Made by a program: the position numbers and the translations under genes
Shown here: piece by piece, positions 5,534 to 42,050 of the stretch
Numbering within the stretch: position 1 is the stretch's first letter
Layout of the letters: each line of letters begins with the position of its first letter
From: Hylemonella sp.
GTDB taxonomy: Bacteria; Pseudomonadota; Gammaproteobacteria; Burkholderiales; Burkholderiaceae_C
Assembly (NCBI GenBank): GCA_030680575.1
Contig: JAUXVI010000020.1
Coordinates: forward strand, 1-64,000
Length of the DNA stretch: 64,000 nt
Direction of reading: 5' to 3'
The notes under the pieces: model-generated
The model's database searches: none
Seen by the model: the letters and a program-made list of their open reading frames with translations, nothing else
What the model was told of the DNA's origin: nothing

Positions 5534-5595
5534 TTTGCCGGTCGACAAAAATTGACTTCGGTCATGGCGTTGGTCATGGGCTGGCGTACACTTTG

Positions 5596-5692
5596 TCTTG
5601 CCCGGGGTGCGCAATGGTTGCGCTGAGATGGATTCCAAACCCGCGAACTTGATCCGGTTCATACCGGCGTAAGAAGAGCCTGACCTGCTGCC
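5596..5692 (+). promoter_or_regulatory. TPP riboswitch (THI element)
   Basis: cccggggtgcgcaatggttgcgctgagatgga...gaacttgatccggttcataccggcgtaagaag directly upstream of thiC. Confidence 0.93.
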
Positions 5693-5704
5693 TTTCACTC
5701 ATGA

Positions 5705-28359: not shown

Positions 28360-28506
28360 GGTATTTCCTGCTCCTTTTTCCCCGAATTGTGAAGTTTAAG
28401 CGGCGTTTCAGGGGTATCTGGCTGTAACAGGACTGTCATGACCCCAATCCGGCCAATGCGGCCGCGACTGCCTAGAATGATTGGCCTGATAGAAAGATGC
28501 CACGCT

Positions 28507-31500
28507 ATGACCCAGGGGACCATCCGCATCCGCGGCGCACGCCAGCACAACCTCAAGAACCTTGACCTCGATATCCGAACCGGGGAGTTGACGGTGGTCA
28601 CCGGCCCCAGCGGTTCCGGCAAATCGAGCCTGGTGTTTGACACCCTGTATGCCGAAGGCCAGCGTCGTTACGTCGAGACCTTCAGCGCCTACGCGCGCCA
28701 GTTCCTTGACCGCATGGACAAGCCGGCGGTGGACAAGGTCGAGGGCGTGCCGCCGGCCATTGCCATTGACCAGACCAACCCGGTGCGCTCGTCGCGTTCC
28801 ACGGTCGGCACGATGACCGAGCTCAACGACCACCTCAAGCTGTTGTTCGCCCGTGCCGGCCAGCTGTTCGACCGCGTGACCGCGTTGCCGGTGCGGCACG
28901 ACTCGGCGGACAGCATCTATGCCGAGTTGCAGGCGCGTGCGCAAGCCGCGTCCGAGTCAGCTTCGCTGGAGGCCCCCGTCGATCCGCGGCTGGTCATCAC
29001 GTTCCCGGTCGAGTTGCCGGGCGGCACCACCGAAGACGAAGTGACACAGTGGCTGTCGGCCAGCGGTTTCACCAAGGTGCAGGCTGAGCGCGAAGTGGCC
29101 ACGCCGGCTGGCCCGCGCAAGGTGCTGGATGTGGTGGCCGACCGTTTTCGCTTGAGCCATGCCGAACGCGCGCGCGTGGTCGAGGCCATCGAGGTCGCGC
29201 TCAAGCGCGGCAGCGGCCGCCTGAACGTCTATCGGCTGCGTGACGAGGGGGAGCCCGAAATTTGGAGGTTTTCCACCGGCTTGCACTGCCCCGAGAGCGA
29301 CCAGCGTTATACCGATCCGATCCCCTCGATGTTCTCGTTCAACTCGGCGGTGGGCGCCTGCGAGGTCTGCCGCGGCTTCGGCCGCGTCATCGGTGTCGAT
29401 TACGGCCTGGTGATCCCGAACGACAAGTTGACCTTGCGTGCCGGTGCCATCAAGCCGATGCAGACGCCGGCCTGGGCCGAGTGCCAGGACGACCTGATGC
29501 GCCATGCCGAGGCTGCCGGCATTCCGCGCGACACCGCCTGGAACAAGCTCACGCCCGAGCAGCAGCACTGGGTGATTCACGGCTCACCCAACTGGAACGG
29601 CAAGTGGAACCAGCAGTGGTACGGCGTCAAGCGCTTCTTCGAGTACCTGGAGACAAAAGCCTACAAGATGCACATCCGGGTGCTGCTGTCCAAGTACCGC
29701 AGCTACACGCCATGCGAAACCTGCAACGGTGCGCGCCTGAAGACCGAAAGCCTGCTCTGGCGCATCGGCGCCAAGGAAGATGCGGATGCGGTGCTGGCGC
29801 CGGCCAAGCGTTTCATGCCTGCTGGTGTGCAATGGACGCGCGCGCAGCTTGAGGCGCTACCGGGCCTGTGCCTGCACGACCTGATGTTGCTGCCGATTGA
29901 TCGCCTGCACCGATTTTTCGAGCGCGTGGCCCAGCTGGAGATAGCGCAGAGCACGCAGGCGCAGGGGGTCGACCGGGGCAACCACCAGGCCCTCAAGCTC
30001 CTGTTCGAGGAAATCACCACCCGTCTGAAATACCTGTGCGACGTCGGCATCGGCTACCTGACGCTCGATCGCCAGAGCCGCACACTGTCGGGTGGTGAGG
30101 TGCAGCGCATCAACCTGACCACCGCCCTGGGTACTTCACTGGTGAATACGCTGTTCGTCCTGGACGAGCCCAGCATCGGCCTGCACCCGCGCGACATGCA
30201 TCGCATCATCGAGGCCATGCAGCGCCTGGTTGACGCCGGCAACACGCTGGTGGTGGTGGAGCACGACCCGGCGGTGATGCTGGCGGCCGACCGCATGATC
30301 GACATGGGCCCCGGCCCGGGCGAGCGCGGCGGCAGCATCGTGTTCGACGGCAGCACCGATGACCTGCGGAACGCCGATACCCTGACCGGCGCCTACCTGG
30401 GCGGGCGCAAGCAGGTCGGTTTCGGCTTCAAGCGCATGGTGACTGAGAGCACGCCGCGTCTCATTCTGGAAGGCGTCACCGAGCACAACCTGAAGCATGT
30501 CTCGGTCGACATTCCGCTCGGCCGGCTGGTGTGCGTCACTGGCGTCTCCGGCTCCGGCAAGTCCACCCTGATCCAGGATGTGCTGGCGCCGGCGCTGATG
30601 CGGCATTTTGGCAAGTCCACTGAGGCGCCGGGCGCGTTCGAGCGTCTGCTCGGCGCCGAGCAGCTCAGCGAGGTGGTGTTTGTCGACCAGTCCCCGATCG
30701 GCAAGACGGCGCGCTCCAACCCGGTCAGTTATGTCGGCGCCTGGGACGCGCTGCGCGAGATCTTTGCCAACGCGCCGCTGTCGCGCCAGCGCGGCTACAC
30801 CGCAGCCAAGTTCAGCGCCAACAGCGGCGACGGCCGCTGCCCCACTTGCGGCGGCTCCGGCTTCGAGCACGTGGAGATGCAGTTCCTCAGCGACGTCTAC
30901 CTGCGCTGCCCGGACTGCGACGGCAAACGCTTCCGTCCCGAGATCCTGGAGATCACCATCGAGCGGGGTGCCGAAGGACCCTCCGGTAGCCGCAGGTTCC
31001 TCAACGTGGCCGATGTGCTGGAGCTGACCGTCAGCGAGGCCTGCAGCCTGTTCGCCAAGGACCGCGACGTCATCCGTGCGCTGCAGCCCATCGTCGATGT
31101 CGGGCTGGAGTATGTGCGCCTGGGGCAACCGGTGCCCACGCTGTCGGGGGGCGAGGCCCAGCGCCTGAAGCTGGCCGGCTTCCTGGCCGAGGCCGCCAAA
31201 AGCGCCAGCGCCAGCCGTCAGGCCATGGCGCGCAAGGGCACGCTGTTCCTGTTTGATGAACCGACCACCGGCCTGCACTTCGACGACATTGCCAAGCTGA
31301 TGCGCGCGCTGCGCAAGCTGCTCGATGCCGGCCACTCGCTGCTGGTGATCGAGCACAACCTCGACGTCATGCGCGCCAGCGACTGGCTGATCGACCTCGG
31401 CCCCGAAGGCGGCGACGCGGGTGGCGAGGTGGTGGCGGTCGGCACGCCAGAAGAAGTACGCCAGCATCCGACCTCGCATACCGGCCGCGCGTTGCGCGAG

Positions 31501-34296
31501 TACGCGCTGGCCATGGGCGAAGTGCATGAAGCGCAGGAAGGGGCTCCCCGCTTCATGCCGCAGGCCTTTGCCCCCACGCCGCGGCGGATTCGCCCGGCAC
31601 GGGAAGCGCTGGACGCGATCCAGATCGTCAATGCCAAGGAGCACAACCTCAAGAGCTTGAGCGTCAACATCCCGCGCGGCAAGTTCAACGTCATCACCGG
31701 GGTGTCGGGTTCCGGCAAATCCACGCTGGCCTTCGACATCCTGTTCAACGAGGGCCAGCGCCGTTATCTTGAATCGCTCAATGCCTATGCGCGCAGCATC
31801 GTGCAGCCGGCCGGCCGGCCCGAGGTCGACGCGGTCTACGGCATTCCACCGACGGTGGCGATCGAGCAGCGCCTCTCGCGCGGCGGACGCAAGAGCACGG
31901 TGGGCACTACCACCGAGGTCTGGCATTTCCTGCGCCTGCTGTTCGTCAAGCTGGGCGTGCAGCATTGTGTTCACGACGATGCGGCAGTGGCGCCGCAGAC
32001 GCCCGAGAGCATCTTGGCGCAGCTGATGAAGAGTTTCCGCGGCCAGCACATTGGCCTGCTGGCTCCCCTGGTGCTCAACCGCAAGGGCGTCTACACCGAG
32101 CTGGCCGACTGGGCGCGGCCGCGTGGCTACACCCACCTGCGGGTCGATGGCAACTTCCTGCCGACCACCGGCTTCCCGCGCATCGACCGTTTCAAGGAGC
32201 ACACCATCGAGCTGCCGGTGGCCAGCCTCGACGTGTTGCCGGACAACGAAACCCAGCTGCGTCAGGCGCTGACGACGGCGCTGGAGCATGGCAAGGGCGT
32301 GTTGCATGTGCTGAGCGGGCTCGATGGCCTGCGGGACGCGATGAAGAACCAGGCGCCGACGGCGGGTATTGGTCGACTCGACGTGTTCTCCACCAAACGC
32401 GCCTGCCCGGTGTGTGCCACGTCCTATGCCGAGCTCGATCCGCGCCTGTTCTCCTACAACAGCAAGCATGGCTGGTGCCCGGATTGCGTCGGCACCGGCG
32501 TCAAGCTGAGCAAGGAGCAGCGCAAGCTGCTCGACGACTCGGTGCGCGATGACAAGGACAAAGGCCGTGAGCAGACCTTTGCCGAGCCGGAGGTGGAGGA
32601 CGTGGCCGATGTCGCCTGTCCGAGCTGCGCGGGCACACGGCTGAACGCGACGGCGCGCGCGGTGAAGTTCAACGGTGTCGGCATCACCGAGATCGCACGC
32701 CTGAGCGTGAGCGACATCCGGACCTGGGTGCAGGCCCTGGCGCTCACGGGGCGTGATGCCGATATCGCGCGCGACCTGATCCCCGAGATCCGCAGCCGGC
32801 TGGAATTCCTGGAGCAGGTGGGGCTGGGTTACCTGACGCTGGACCGTGGCGCGCCCACGCTGTCGGGCGGCGAGGCGCAGCGCATCCGTCTGGCCGCGCA
32901 GCTCGGCAGCAACCTGCAGGGCGTGTGTTACGTGCTGGACGAGCCGACCATCGGCCTGCATGCGCGAGACAACCAGATTCTGTTGAATGCCCTGCAAACC
33001 CTGAGCGACAAGGGCAACACGCTGGTGGTGGTGGAGCACGACGAGGACACCATCCGCCGCGCTGACCACATCATCGACATCGGGCCGAGCGCCGGCAAAC
33101 GTGGTGGCCGCCTGGTCGCCGAAGGCGGTGTGACCGACATCACCAACGCTGGGGACTCGCAGACCGGGCGCTATCTGCTGCACGCCATGAAGCATCCGCT
33201 GCAAGCGCGCAGGAACGTGGCCGACAGTGAGCAGCCCTGGCTCACCGTGCACGGCGCGAAGCTGCACAACCTGCAGAACATCCGTGCCAGCATTCCGCTC
33301 AAGCGTCTGGTGGCGGTCACCGGCGTCAGTGGGTCTGGCAAGTCCACGCTGGCGCGCGACGTGCTGCTGAGCAATGTGCAGGTGGCGGTGGCCAAGCGTG
33401 CCACCAAGGCCGGGCGTGATGCGCTGGCTGCAGGCGAGGCGCTGGTCTGGAGCGGCTGCGAATCGGTCAGCGGGTTCGAGACCGTCGACCGCGTGCTCGA
33501 GGTCGACCAGACGCCAATCGGCAAGACACCGCGCAGTTGTCCGGCCACCTACATCGGCTTCTGGGACACCATCCGCAAGCTGTTTGCCGAGACGCTGGAG
33601 GCCAAGGCGCGCGGTTACGCGGCAGGCCGCTTCTCTTTCAACACCGGCGAGGGCCGTTGCCCGAGTTGCGAAGGTCAGGGCGTGCGCACCATCGAGATGA
33701 GCTTCCTGCCCGATGTGAAGGTGCTGTGCGAGTCGTGTCGCGGTGCGCGCTTCGACCCCGAGACGCTGGCCGTGACCTGGCGCGGCAAGAGCGTGGGCGA
33801 TGTGCTGCAGATGGAGGTGGACGAAGCGGTCGAATTTTTCGCCGCCATGCCTTCCATCGCCCATCCGCTGCAATTGCTGAAAGACGTGGGCCTGGGCTAC
33901 CTGACGCTGGGGCAGCCTTCGCCCACGCTCAGTGGCGGCGAGGCGCAGCGCATCAAGCTGGTGACGGAACTCACCAAGGTCCGTGACGAGGTGGGCCGGC
34001 GCGGCCAGAAGGCGCCGCACACACTCTACGTGCTGGACGAGCCCACGGTGGGCCTGCACATGGCCGATGTGGACAAGCTGATCCGCGTGCTGCACCGGCT
34101 GGTGGACGGCGGCCACAGCGTGGTGGTGATCGAGCACGACCTCGACGTCATCGCCGAGGCCGACTGGATCATCGACCTCGGTCCCGACGGCGGCAAGGAC
34201 GGTGGCCGCATCGCCGCCGCCGCGACGCCGGAAGAGGTGGTTCTGCGGGGCACCCACACCGGGACTGCGCTGCGGCCGGTGCTGGCGCGGCAATAA
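28507..34296 (+). CDS. uvrA: double-length UvrA-family ATPase (tandem fused UvrA)
   Basis: Four Walker A motifs (GPSGSGKSS, GVSGSGKST x3), four LSGGE(V/A)QR signatures and CxxC zinc modules in about 1930 aa. Confidence 0.93.
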   Translation: MTQGTIRIRGARQHNLKNLDLDIRTGELTVVTGPSGSGKSSLVFDTLYAEGQRRYVETFSAYARQFLDRMDKPAVDKVEGVPPAIAIDQTNPVRSSRSTVGTMTELNDHLKLLFARAGQLFDRVTALPVRHDSADSIYAELQARAQAASESASLEAPVDPRLVITFPVELPGGTTEDEVTQWLSASGFTKVQAEREVATPAGPRKVLDVVADRFRLSHAERARVVEAIEVALKRGSGRLNVYRLRDEGEPEIWRFSTGLHCPESDQRYTDPIPSMFSFNSAVGACEVCRGFGRVIGVDYGLVIPNDKLTLRAGAIKPMQTPAWAECQDDLMRHAEAAGIPRDTAWNKLTPEQQHWVIHGSPNWNGKWNQQWYGVKRFFEYLETKAYKMHIRVLLSKYRSYTPCETCNGARLKTESLLWRIGAKEDADAVLAPAKRFMPAGVQWTRAQLEALPGLCLHDLMLLPIDRLHRFFERVAQLEIAQSTQAQGVDRGNHQALKLLFEEITTRLKYLCDVGIGYLTLDRQSRTLSGGEVQRINLTTALGTSLVNTLFVLDEPSIGLHPRDMHRIIEAMQRLVDAGNTLVVVEHDPAVMLAADRMIDMGPGPGERGGSIVFDGSTDDLRNADTLTGAYLGGRKQVGFGFKRMVTESTPRLILEGVTEHNLKHVSVDIPLGRLVCVTGVSGSGKSTLIQDVLAPALMRHFGKSTEAPGAFERLLGAEQLSEVVFVDQSPIGKTARSNPVSYVGAWDALREIFANAPLSRQRGYTAAKFSANSGDGRCPTCGGSGFEHVEMQFLSDVYLRCPDCDGKRFRPEILEITIERGAEGPSGSRRFLNVADVLELTVSEACSLFAKDRDVIRALQPIVDVGLEYVRLGQPVPTLSGGEAQRLKLAGFLAEAAKSASASRQAMARKGTLFLFDEPTTGLHFDDIAKLMRALRKLLDAGHSLLVIEHNLDVMRASDWLIDLGPEGGDAGGEVVAVGTPEEVRQHPTSHTGRALREYALAMGEVHEAQEGAPRFMPQAFAPTPRRIRPAREALDAIQIVNAKEHNLKSLSVNIPRGKFNVITGVSGSGKSTLAFDILFNEGQRRYLESLNAYARSIVQPAGRPEVDAVYGIPPTVAIEQRLSRGGRKSTVGTTTEVWHFLRLLFVKLGVQHCVHDDAAVAPQTPESILAQLMKSFRGQHIGLLAPLVLNRKGVYTELADWARPRGYTHLRVDGNFLPTTGFPRIDRFKEHTIELPVASLDVLPDNETQLRQALTTALEHGKGVLHVLSGLDGLRDAMKNQAPTAGIGRLDVFSTKRACPVCATSYAELDPRLFSYNSKHGWCPDCVGTGVKLSKEQRKLLDDSVRDDKDKGREQTFAEPEVEDVADVACPSCAGTRLNATARAVKFNGVGITEIARLSVSDIRTWVQALALTGRDADIARDLIPEIRSRLEFLEQVGLGYLTLDRGAPTLSGGEAQRIRLAAQLGSNLQGVCYVLDEPTIGLHARDNQILLNALQTLSDKGNTLVVVEHDEDTIRRADHIIDIGPSAGKRGGRLVAEGGVTDITNAGDSQTGRYLLHAMKHPLQARRNVADSEQPWLTVHGAKLHNLQNIRASIPLKRLVAVTGVSGSGKSTLARDVLLSNVQVAVAKRATKAGRDALAAGEALVWSGCESVSGFETVDRVLEVDQTPIGKTPRSCPATYIGFWDTIRKLFAETLEAKARGYAAGRFSFNTGEGRCPSCEGQGVRTIEMSFLPDVKVLCESCRGARFDPETLAVTWRGKSVGDVLQMEVDEAVEFFAAMPSIAHPLQLLKDVGLGYLTLGQPSPTLSGGEAQRIKLVTELTKVRDEVGRRGQKAPHTLYVLDEPTVGLHMADVDKLIRVLHRLVDGGHSVVVIEHDLDVIAEADWIIDLGPDGGKDGGRIAAAATPEEVVLRGTHTGTALRPVLARQ

Positions 34297-34401: not shown

Positions 34402-35526
34402 ATGCAGATGATTTCGCTGGATCAGGTGTTCCAGATACTGAAGCCGGGGGTGCCGCTGCCGTTCGGTGTGCGCGATGCCGCCGGCCGCCTGTTGCTGGCC
34501 AAGGGCTTGGTGCTGCATGAGCAGGCCAAGCTGCTGGAGCTGCTCAACCGTGGCATGTTTGTCGACGTCGAGGATGTCAAGCGGCATGTGCCGCCCGCCC
34601 GGGAGTCCGAAGCGATTGAGCGGCCGACGGAGCGCTTCTCCGTTCGCTGGGAGGCGTTGCTGCGCAGGCTGGGGCTTCTGCTGCAGGCCCCCACTGATCC
34701 CCAGTTCCTCAAGCAAGTGCGCGAGATGGTGGTACGGATTGCCGGCTGCCCGGAATCGTGTACCGATCAGATGATTTTCCTGATCGTGCGCCATGATTAC
34801 AGTCAGACCCAGCGTTACCCGGAGGCGCATTCGCTGCATGTGGCCGTCCTGTGTCACCTGGTCAGTCGACGCCTGGGCTGGGCTGACAGTCGGCGCATGA
34901 GCCTGATTGGTGCCGCCCTGACCATGAACCTGGGCATGGTCAGCTTGCAGGCCAAGCTGGCGATGCAGCGGACACCCCCGACACCGCAACAGCGGCAGGA
35001 CATCGAGGCCCATCCACTGGCCTCAGCGGCGCTGCTGCGCGCCAGCGGGCTGCAGGATGAGGAATGGCTGTTGGCGGTGGAGCAGCACCACGAATGCCCG
35101 GGCGGTGGCGGTTACCCGAAGCAGGTGACGGCCCCCGGCGAGCTGTCGCAACTGATCCGTTTCATCGACAACTTCACCGCCAAGTACAGCCCGCGTGCCG
35201 GGCGCGACAAACAGCCGGCGCACCAGGCGGCCAAGGACCTGTACGCCCAAAGCGGCGGCAATCCGCTGGCGGCGGCGCTGATCAAGGAATGCGGCATTTA
35301 CCCACCAGGTTGTTTCGTCAAGCTGGCCAGTGGTGAATCCGCGGTGGTGACGCGACGCGGGCTCACGCTCAAGGAGCCGCTGGTGGCGGCCCTGACCAAT
35401 GCCCATGGCGAACCCCTGGTGCGTCCCGTGAAGCGGGATACCTCCCAGCCCGGGCGCGCGATTGTGGGGGCGCTGGCCGACAAGGCCATCACCGTCCAGG
35501 TGTCGGCTGACCAGCTCTACGACTAG
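34402..35526 (+). CDS. HD-GYP-like protein with degenerate HD motif
   Basis: HSLHVAVLCHLVSRRLGW...GAALTMNLGM...EAHPLASAALL...EQHHECPGGGGYP. Confidence 0.7.
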   Translation: MQMISLDQVFQILKPGVPLPFGVRDAAGRLLLAKGLVLHEQAKLLELLNRGMFVDVEDVKRHVPPARESEAIERPTERFSVRWEALLRRLGLLLQAPTDPQFLKQVREMVVRIAGCPESCTDQMIFLIVRHDYSQTQRYPEAHSLHVAVLCHLVSRRLGWADSRRMSLIGAALTMNLGMVSLQAKLAMQRTPPTPQQRQDIEAHPLASAALLRASGLQDEEWLLAVEQHHECPGGGGYPKQVTAPGELSQLIRFIDNFTAKYSPRAGRDKQPAHQAAKDLYAQSGGNPLAAALIKECGIYPPGCFVKLASGESAVVTRRGLTLKEPLVAALTNAHGEPLVRPVKRDTSQPGRAIVGALADKAITVQVSADQLYD

Positions 35527-35792
35527 GGCCTGTTCACACTGATTTCGCAAGATGCGTTGCGGATCAAAATGGCCATGCGCAAGACGCGAAACGCAGCCGG
35601 GGTCTTCCCCCGGCAAGGCTTCGCAACGCCGCGCATGGCCTTTTTGGCCGCAACCCGAAGGGAACGCGATGAAAACCGCGCCACTCGTTGTTGCACTCCT
35701 AGCCCAGGCGGCCAGCCTGGGCGTCGTCGCGCGCCTAGATTGGCGCGGTTTTCATCGCGTTCGCACTTGCGAAATCAGTGTTAACAGGCCCT
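35525..35792. mobile_element. MITE-like element with 27-bp terminal inverted repeats and two internal hairpins
   Basis: TIRs 35525-35551 and 35766-35792 match 26/27; internal perfect 22-bp inverted repeat 35662-35683/35741-35762; second imperfect stem 35556-35580/35631-35654; no transposase ORF. Confidence 0.8.
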
Positions 35793-35811: not shown

Positions 35812-35840
35812 TTGACGTTCGGCACCGTACGACTTAGTAT
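35812..35840 (+). promoter_or_regulatory. sigma70-type promoter
   Basis: TTGACG - 17 nt - TAGTAT. Confidence 0.6.
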
Positions 35841-35846
35841 TTGCCT

Positions 35847-36008
35847 GTGATGATTTCCAACCAATCCTCCCGACGCTCCGTGAACGCCCGACGTATGTCA
35901 GGCGGGCTGTGGGCGTGCGTGGAAATGCGGTGAAGAGAAATGTAATCACCTGAACTGATCTCTTCAGTTTTCCCGACCAGGCCACGGCTCACCCCCGTGG
36001 CCTTTTTG
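35847..36008 (+). ncRNA. candidate structured RNA (sRNA or leader attenuator/riboswitch)
   Basis: Promoter upstream; nested stem ATTTCCA/TGGAAAT enclosing ACGCCC/GGGCGT; stem TGAAGAGA/TCTCTTCA; terminal Rho-independent terminator. Confidence 0.55.
35980..36007 (+). terminator. Rho-independent terminator 30 nt before the aminotransferase start codon
   Basis: ggccacgg-ctcaccc-ccgtggcc-ttttt. Confidence 0.85.
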
Positions 36009-36037
36009 TTTTTGCACTTCACAGAAAGAGGTTTGAT

Positions 36038-37222
36038 ATGCCCGAGACTGCCGCCCCGTTCAACCCCAGCAGCCTGATGCCGATCACCCCGCGCCCGGAG
36101 CTTGTCTTCGTGCGCGGCGAGGGCGCGTACCTGTTCGATCGGCAGGGCCGCCGTTATCTGGATTGGGTGCAGGGCTGGGCCGTCAATTGCCTGGGACACG
36201 CGCCGGCCGCCGTGGCGCAGGCGCTATGCCACCAGGCTCGCACGCTGATCAATCCGAGCCCGGCCTTCTACAACGAGCCGGCCATGGAACTGGCCACCTT
36301 GCTGACGCAGCACAGCTGCTTTGACCAGGTGTTCTTTGCCAGCTCGGGGGCCGAGGCCAACGAGGGCGCCATCAAGCTGGCACGCAAGTGGGGCCAGCTG
36401 CACAAACCGGGCGCGTTCGAGATCATCACCTTCATCAACGGCTTTCACGGCCGCACCCTGGCCACCATGTCCGCCAGCGGTAAGCCGGGCTGGGACACGA
36501 TGTTTGCGCCGCAGGTGCCGGGTTTTCCCAAGGCGGTTTGGAACGATCTGGCGTCGGTGCGCGCGCTGATCAATGAGAAGACGGTAGCGGTCATGCTCGA
36601 GCCGGTGCAGGGCGAGGCCGGTGTCATGCCGGCTGATGCGGCCTTTTTCAAGGGTTTGCGTGCGCTGTGCGATGCCCATGGCCTGCTGCTGATCGCCGAC
36701 GAGGTGCAGACCGGTTGCGGACGCACCGGCACGCTGTTTGCCTACGAGCAGTATGGGGTGGAGCCTGACATCATGACCTTGGGCAAAGGGCTGGGCGGCG
36801 GCGCGCCGCTTTCGGCCCTGCTGGCCAAGGCCGATGTCGCCTGCTTCGCGCCCGGCGAGCAGGGTGGCACCTTTTGCGGCAACCCGCTCATGTGTGCCGC
36901 CGGCGTGGCCGTGATGCACAGTTTGCTGGCGGAGGGTTTTCTGGACGCCTCACGCCAGGTTGGCGCGCAACTGGCAGACGGGTTGCGCAGTCTGTCCCGT
37001 GAGTTCAGCCTGGGGGAGGTACGCGGACACGGTCTGCTGCTGGCCCTGGAGTTGGGGCATGAGCGCGCCGCGCAGGTGGTGACCCTGGCGCGTGAACGCG
37101 GGCTGCTGCTCAACGCGCCGCGCGCGCACTGCCTGCGCTTCATGCCGGCGCTCAACACCCGTGAGCAGGAGGTGGCGCAGGGGCTGGCTTTGCTGCGCGG
37201 CGTCCTGGGTGATCTGCACTAG
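36038..37222 (+). CDS. argD: acetylornithine/aspartate aminotransferase family protein (ArgD-like)
   Basis: Class III PLP aminotransferase: [45 protein letters not shown]. Confidence 0.88.
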
Positions 37223-41936: not shown

Positions 41937-41942
41937 CAGCGC

Positions 41943-42050
41943 ATTCCGAGGAGCGTTGCAGTTCACATTCCGTTGAACGAGGCTCGGACCCGTGGTGGGG
42001 CACCGCCCCCACCACCGCATCAACGGCGCTCACCCACGGACCTGTGTGGT
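41943..42050 (+). promoter_or_regulatory. SAH riboswitch
   Basis: ttccgaggagcgttgcagttca...gaacgaggctcgg...catcaacggcgctcacccacgga upstream of ahcY. Confidence 0.92.

Follow-up and report, generated by a model that had tools for sequence, protein, structure and literature searches.

The region directly upstream of argD in the window (the whole 64,000-nt stretch of DNA analysed) most likely encodes a ribosome-mediated transcription attenuator of that gene, and we infer that it responds to arginine; we put the probability of this reading at roughly 0.88. The leader ORF (argL) carries consecutive codons for the amino acid of the pathway, as two Arg-Arg pairs that are conserved in relatives. An intrinsic terminator, which co-occurs with the leader, lies between this ORF and the structural gene, and the structural gene makes the amino acid that would be sensed. 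The features are listed in Table 1.

Table 1. Features of the argD leader region (window positions)
Feature	Position	Strand	Basis
Sigma70-type promoter, TTGACG-N17-TAGTAT	35812..35840	+	Sequence; relatives share position
Leader ORF (argL), M(M)ISNQSSRRSVNARRMSGGLWACVEMR	35847..35933	+	GTG 35847 or ATG 35850 to TGA 35931-35933
Putative protector hairpin region, CCGACGC..GCCCGAC-GUAU-GUCAGGC..GGGCGUGCG	35870..35919	+	Pairing in relatives
First Arg-Arg pair (CGA CGC), proposed stall site	35871..35876	+	Sequence, conservation
Second Arg-Arg pair (CGA CGT), proposed stall site	35889..35894	+	Sequence, conservation
Putative antiterminator arm, GGGCUGUGG, consensus AGCCGUG	35904..35912	+	Complementary to terminator 5′ arm CCACGGCUC, 35982-35990
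Second hairpin, TGAAGAGA/TCTCTTCA	35931..35966	+	Poorly conserved
Intrinsic terminator, AGGCCACGGCTCACCCCCGTGGCCTTTTT	35979..36007	+	Strength, conservation, compensatory changes
argD, acetylornithine transaminase (PRK03715 / NF002985), proposed controlled gene	36038..37222	+	NF002985 match

The gene downstream was identified as argD by its match to NF002985 (627.6 bits versus a cut-off of 568), and close relatives of its product are Curvibacter proteins (98% identity to Curvibacter sp. PD_MW3 and 94% to C. delicatus). The first-pass annotation had placed a candidate undescribed structured RNA with its own promoter and terminator here. The sequences it listed were all found in the window, with a single slip: the minimal ATG-TAA exists, but at 35940-35945 and not at 35938-35944. 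The promoter was real and lay where it had been placed. It is the sole sigma70-like site in 2.6 kb, which exceeds chance (1 found versus 0.1 expected in shuffles), and it is conserved across families, nearly all relatives carrying it at the same position with a spacing of 16-18 nt. On its upstream side, window positions 35525-35792 hold nested inverted repeats, with 27-nt outer arms (AGGGCCTGTTCACACTGATTTCGCAAG, 96% complementary, 214 nt apart) and inner inverted pairs of 25 nt and 16 nt. About 20 nt separate this MITE-like insertion from the argD promoter, and the outer-arm repeat sequence was not seen at the same place in the Curvibacter relatives examined. Further upstream, an ORF of 1952 aa (28438-34296) contains repeated UvrA-like ATPase halves and apparently encodes a double-length UvrA-like protein.

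The leader ORF of the window has 28 codons and starts 6-9 nt past the -10 box, with no Shine-Dalgarno sequence. Almost every argD relative of this type shows the same arrangement, with an ATG or GTG start 6-10 nt past the -10 box; in two close relatives without the ATG (L016 and L017), the GTG serves as start. SD-like triplets precede the start in only 2 of 32 leaders. Because the start codon is so close to the -10 box, argL is probably leaderless, with transcription starting at or a few nt from the start codon. A possible 12-codon ORF had been pointed out earlier (MSGGLWACVEMR); it is in frame, but it is merely the C-terminal part of the ORF described here, and the full ORF had been missed. 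Peptide-based attenuation, then called "also conceivable", is supported by the in-frame Arg-run ORF that begins at the promoter.

The arginine codons of the leaders were compared among the 32 sequences. All 31 leaders with a CGACG motif have it in frame 0, and the first Arg-Arg dicodon was CGA-CGC, CGA-CGT or CGA-CGA in 30 of the 31 leaders having such a pair. Counted over 22 codons, Arg occurred 4.97 times in the frame of the ORF, compared with 1.9 and 2.5 times in the two alternative frames. The rare codon CGA, with which both pairs of the window leader begin, accounted for 45% of Arg codons in the leaders versus 4% in the argD genes. This enrichment is a signature of slow, charge-sensitive codons, though RNA pairing may also favour CGA.

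The peptides of relatives follow the pattern M(x)6-8RRxxxxARRxSGxPC; the N-terminal residues vary, and indels ahead of the second Arg pair preserve the frame. Since the peptide of this one lineage looks conserved beyond Arg (SRR...ARR.SG.PC), it could be asked whether free arginine or ornithine is sensed by the nascent chain in the exit tunnel, with arrest of the ribosome independently of Arg-tRNA charging. Arrest of this kind is exemplified by SpeFL of E. coli and Salmonella and by the fungal arginine attenuator peptide. However, the conserved tail overlaps the RNA-pairing segments, and Cys and Arg swap freely there (PCCVC versus PCRVR). Moreover, the more distant argD loci (about 60-67% identity) have different leader peptides, such as MNTAIIRRRARTLLPTGVPRG, MNMIRTLLRRRSPLPLPGKPCA, MLSLQTNLRRRRSLLP and MKNFPNMSSPNIARRRFSLCEPGQMW, and retain in common only Arg runs (LRRRR, IRRRAR, SRRRR and ARRR). 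For a biosynthetic gene, stalling at Arg codons upon starvation directly gives the right sign. Sensing by the nascent peptide is thus improbable, and stalling at Arg codons when charged Arg-tRNA is scarce is preferred.

The terminator was likewise confirmed as strong, at the place first proposed and conserved across families. The hairpin at 35979-36003 with its T-run was the strongest of three candidates, and compensatory changes were observed in 5 of its 10 pairs among relatives. The RNA from 35845 to 36010 folded at -61.4 kcal/mol versus -48.5 kcal/mol in shuffles (z -3.3, 1 of 200 shuffles as good), much of this stability being contributed by the terminator. The nested stems of the first-pass annotation are present, but the ATTTCCA/TGGAAAT stem occurs only in the closest relatives and is lost in other genera; a central GC-rich hairpin is conserved across families. 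At the position of the second hairpin, many relatives have a hairpin that holds the leader stop codon in its loop.

Pairing within the leader was then scored over the alignment. In the putative protector hairpin, 77% of pair cells were standard, versus 24-46% when the partners were slid. The putative antiterminator GCYGUG (35906-35911, inside GGGCUGUGG) could pair with the terminator 5′ arm in 85% of cells, versus 27-46% for slid partners, and this complementarity would explain the near-invariance of the terminator 5′ arm. An alignment of argD upstream regions had been suggested earlier as a check; it showed the element to be conserved in relatives, but covariation in the protector and antiterminator helices was not above shuffles, because these pairs hardly vary. 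The structural part of the model therefore rests on complementarity and consistency. Consensus folding of the MAFFT alignment by RNAalifold recovered the terminator alone. A structured leader with a terminator could also gate argD as a riboswitch by direct ligand binding, or through a bound protein, and TPP and SAH riboswitches do occur elsewhere in the window (5593-5693 and 41942-42038, both above gathering score). At the argD element, however, no Rfam class was matched, no aptamer-like core is conserved beyond the coding constraint, and the consensus fold holds only the terminator, making such a leader extremely unlikely.

The proposed attenuation switch was modelled by folding transcripts truncated before the terminator 3′ arm, with the RNA masked up to the ribosome position. 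Placing the ribosome at the first Arg pair raised the pairing of the terminator 5′ arm with upstream RNA from 0.30 to 0.73 (shuffled 0.44), with a gain in 30 of 32 sequences; a ribosome placed at the stop codon gave 0.05. In the ribosome-free truncated RNA of the window itself the antiterminator was already favoured (0.75), so that the window sequence makes a weak switch in this crude model. Direct folds of the window sequence show a 9-bp antiterminator.

We propose the following course of events. Transcription would start at or near the leader start codon, and the 28-codon leader would undergo leaderless translation. With ample Arg-tRNA, the ribosome would clear both Arg-Arg sites (CGA CGC and CGA CGT) and, after its passage, the protector hairpin would refold and hide the antiterminator arm; the terminator would then form and an RNA of about 160 nt would be released. 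When Arg-tRNA is scarce, the ribosome would stall at an Arg pair, covering the 5′ side of the protector and freeing GGGCUGUGG to pair with CCACGGCUC, the terminator 5′ arm, so that no terminator would form and RNA polymerase would proceed into argD.

The linkage of the element to argD was examined in other genomes. By DNA search, the element was detected ahead of argD both in close relatives and in other genera, and inspection of 80 argD loci revealed it in Curvibacter, Rhodoferax, Rhodocyclaceae, Gallionellales, Azohydromonas, Paludibacterium, Andreprevotia, Silvimonas, Chitiniphilus and others. The promoter, start position, frame, Arg runs, the segment complementary to the terminator 5′ arm and the terminator are kept in relatives. 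Among 108 distinct argD upstream regions, 47 had both a terminator and a leaderless-type Arg leader, 54 had neither, 7 had the terminator only and none had the leader only (Fisher 3.5e-23, without correction for shared ancestry, and with a detection rule built on the same loci that were counted). At least 4 of the 7 terminator-only regions (L034, L058, L165 and L167) do have an Arg leader, below the promoter threshold of the script. In 953 kb of flanking control sequence, 321 promoter-plus-ORF matches were found, 44 with RR, 6 with a terminator and none with both. The attenuator is not universal, since only 37 of the 199 genomes searched within the order have a PRK03715-type argD above the strict cut-off. 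When 274 genomes sampled across the class were searched with our model of the element (R1), no copy linked to argD turned up outside the order. Most weak R1 matches lay before an EamA transporter or were chance terminators, and the second match in the genome of the window (G000:C42:56602) was just a terminator after another gene.

A second conserved leader was noticed upstream of an EamA-family transporter (MSLP.AFVSVILIWSTTPLAIKWS..; PF00892). It comprises a TTGAC-17-box promoter, an ORF of about 18-37 codons that usually starts about 7 nt past the -10, and a terminator of the type GGCCACRG / GGCCGCGG. It was seen at L122, L125, L127-L129, L131-L133, L135, L138, L139, L141, L144, L147 and L150, and outside the order at L194-L197 and L199. 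An Rfam search with this leader gave no match. It looks like another leaderless uORF attenuator, with no single amino-acid run.

An Rfam/Infernal search, also suggested at first pass, found no family reaching its gathering score at the argD element, which had not been recognised at first pass as TPP, SAH, SAM, glycine, 6S, SRP or tmRNA. 6S RNA (RF00013) was rejected, as the best 6S candidate of the genome is on another contig (G000:C21:22350-22529). The only weak match was to RF02884 (18.6 bits, E 0.96, gathering 59). This family, BcKCsr7 or "Burkholderia sRNA 7", corresponds to Bc_KC_sr7 (RIT34, nc5U30) of B. cenocepacia. Burkholderia-type argD leaders score 92.6-163.7 bits with it, the lowest value being that of L185. 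Across 299 genomes of the order it gave 3 matches, each of which lies directly upstream of argD and has a promoter-proximal ORF reading M..LRRRRS. Like the window element, RF02884 thus lies directly upstream of argD with a promoter-proximal Arg-run ORF (MNRFLSALRRRRSPL..) and a terminator (GCCACGG..CCGTGGC), whereas the leader peptide and the central hairpin differ. The description of the element as new therefore holds for the window sequence, while its Burkholderia counterpart is already in Rfam. In the accessible parts of two reviews, Bc_KC_sr7 is listed as an sRNA (nc5U30/RIT34), not as an attenuator, with confirmed expression and without a given function (PMC6321483, PMC10987360). A short transcript from the same position has therefore been reported in a relative.

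This cataloguing as an sRNA, at least in the accessible text of PMC10987360, and the possession of its own promoter and terminator would suit a stand-alone, trans-acting sRNA merely located upstream of argD, which had been one of the two layouts first considered. However, the ORF carries an in-frame Arg run, the terminator ends only about 30 nt from argD, every RF02884 match precedes argD, and the presence of the leader goes hand in hand with that of the terminator. The sRNA is therefore not supported as the main reading and is very improbable, although the released RNA may have a secondary role in trans. The other layout, a leader whose terminator gates the aminotransferase, is supported by the coupling to argD and by the upstream segment that can sequester the terminator 5′ arm. 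The attenuator reading also explains RF02884 and likely provides a function for this orphan Rfam family.

The his, trp, leu, thr and phe leaders of enterobacteria combine a codon run, mutually exclusive antiterminator and terminator structures and a biosynthetic target. The argD leader shares the codon run and the biosynthetic target, and mutually exclusive structures are proposed for it; it differs in amino acid and lineage and has no Shine-Dalgarno sequence before the ORF; the Rfam models of such leaders (His_leader, Trp_leader and others) gave no match at the window element. A parallel in layout is trpL (rnTrpL/peTrpL) of Sinorhizobium meliloti, for which attenuation by a leaderless leader is established: the ORF is at the 5′ end of the transcript, contains codons of the regulated amino acid and yields a short attenuated RNA, but serves Trp and trpE(G) instead of Arg and argD (PMC7298713). 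Leaderless transcripts have been mapped in B. cenocepacia (PMC4603805). In Pseudomonas aeruginosa, a leader peptide precedes the arginine/pyrimidine gene carAB and attenuation was proposed, but gene and lineage are different, attenuation is tied to pyrimidines (PMC4997734), and homology with argL was not seen. Arg codons of an upstream ORF also regulate a downstream gene by arginine/ornithine in the speF leader (SpeFL) of Salmonella and E. coli, according to the accessible part of PMC6386406, and in rbfL of S. aureus (PMC13009471). The former differs in serving an inducible ornithine decarboxylase gene and not arginine biosynthesis, and the latter in targeting translation initiation of a biofilm regulator. 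A search of the open-licence literature found no arginine or argD attenuator in Betaproteobacteria. Leader-peptide attenuation is a known kind of mechanism; that literature does not appear to describe its use for arginine and argD, its leaderless form here or what BcKCsr7 is.

The ArgR C-terminal domain was absent in all 61 genomes of the order searched, whereas it was found in the positive controls E. coli and B. subtilis; this agrees with the reported lack of ArgR in non-gamma classes (PMC5343134). A broader proposal is that leaderless Arg-codon attenuation serves as a main substitute for ArgR in many Betaproteobacteria and that other arginine genes are targeted in trans by the released short RNA or peptide (e.g. 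Bc_KC_sr7), by analogy with the trans action of rnTrpL/peTrpL in S. meliloti; as a whole it is unlikely. For argD itself, an arginine-sensing leader would fill the ArgR gap. It would also be a clear example in Betaproteobacteria of a leaderless ORF for a leader peptide, with translation having to begin right at the 5′ terminus of the nascent transcript. The attenuator is a concrete, widely conserved and easily tested candidate for an arginine sensor in Betaproteobacteria without ArgR.
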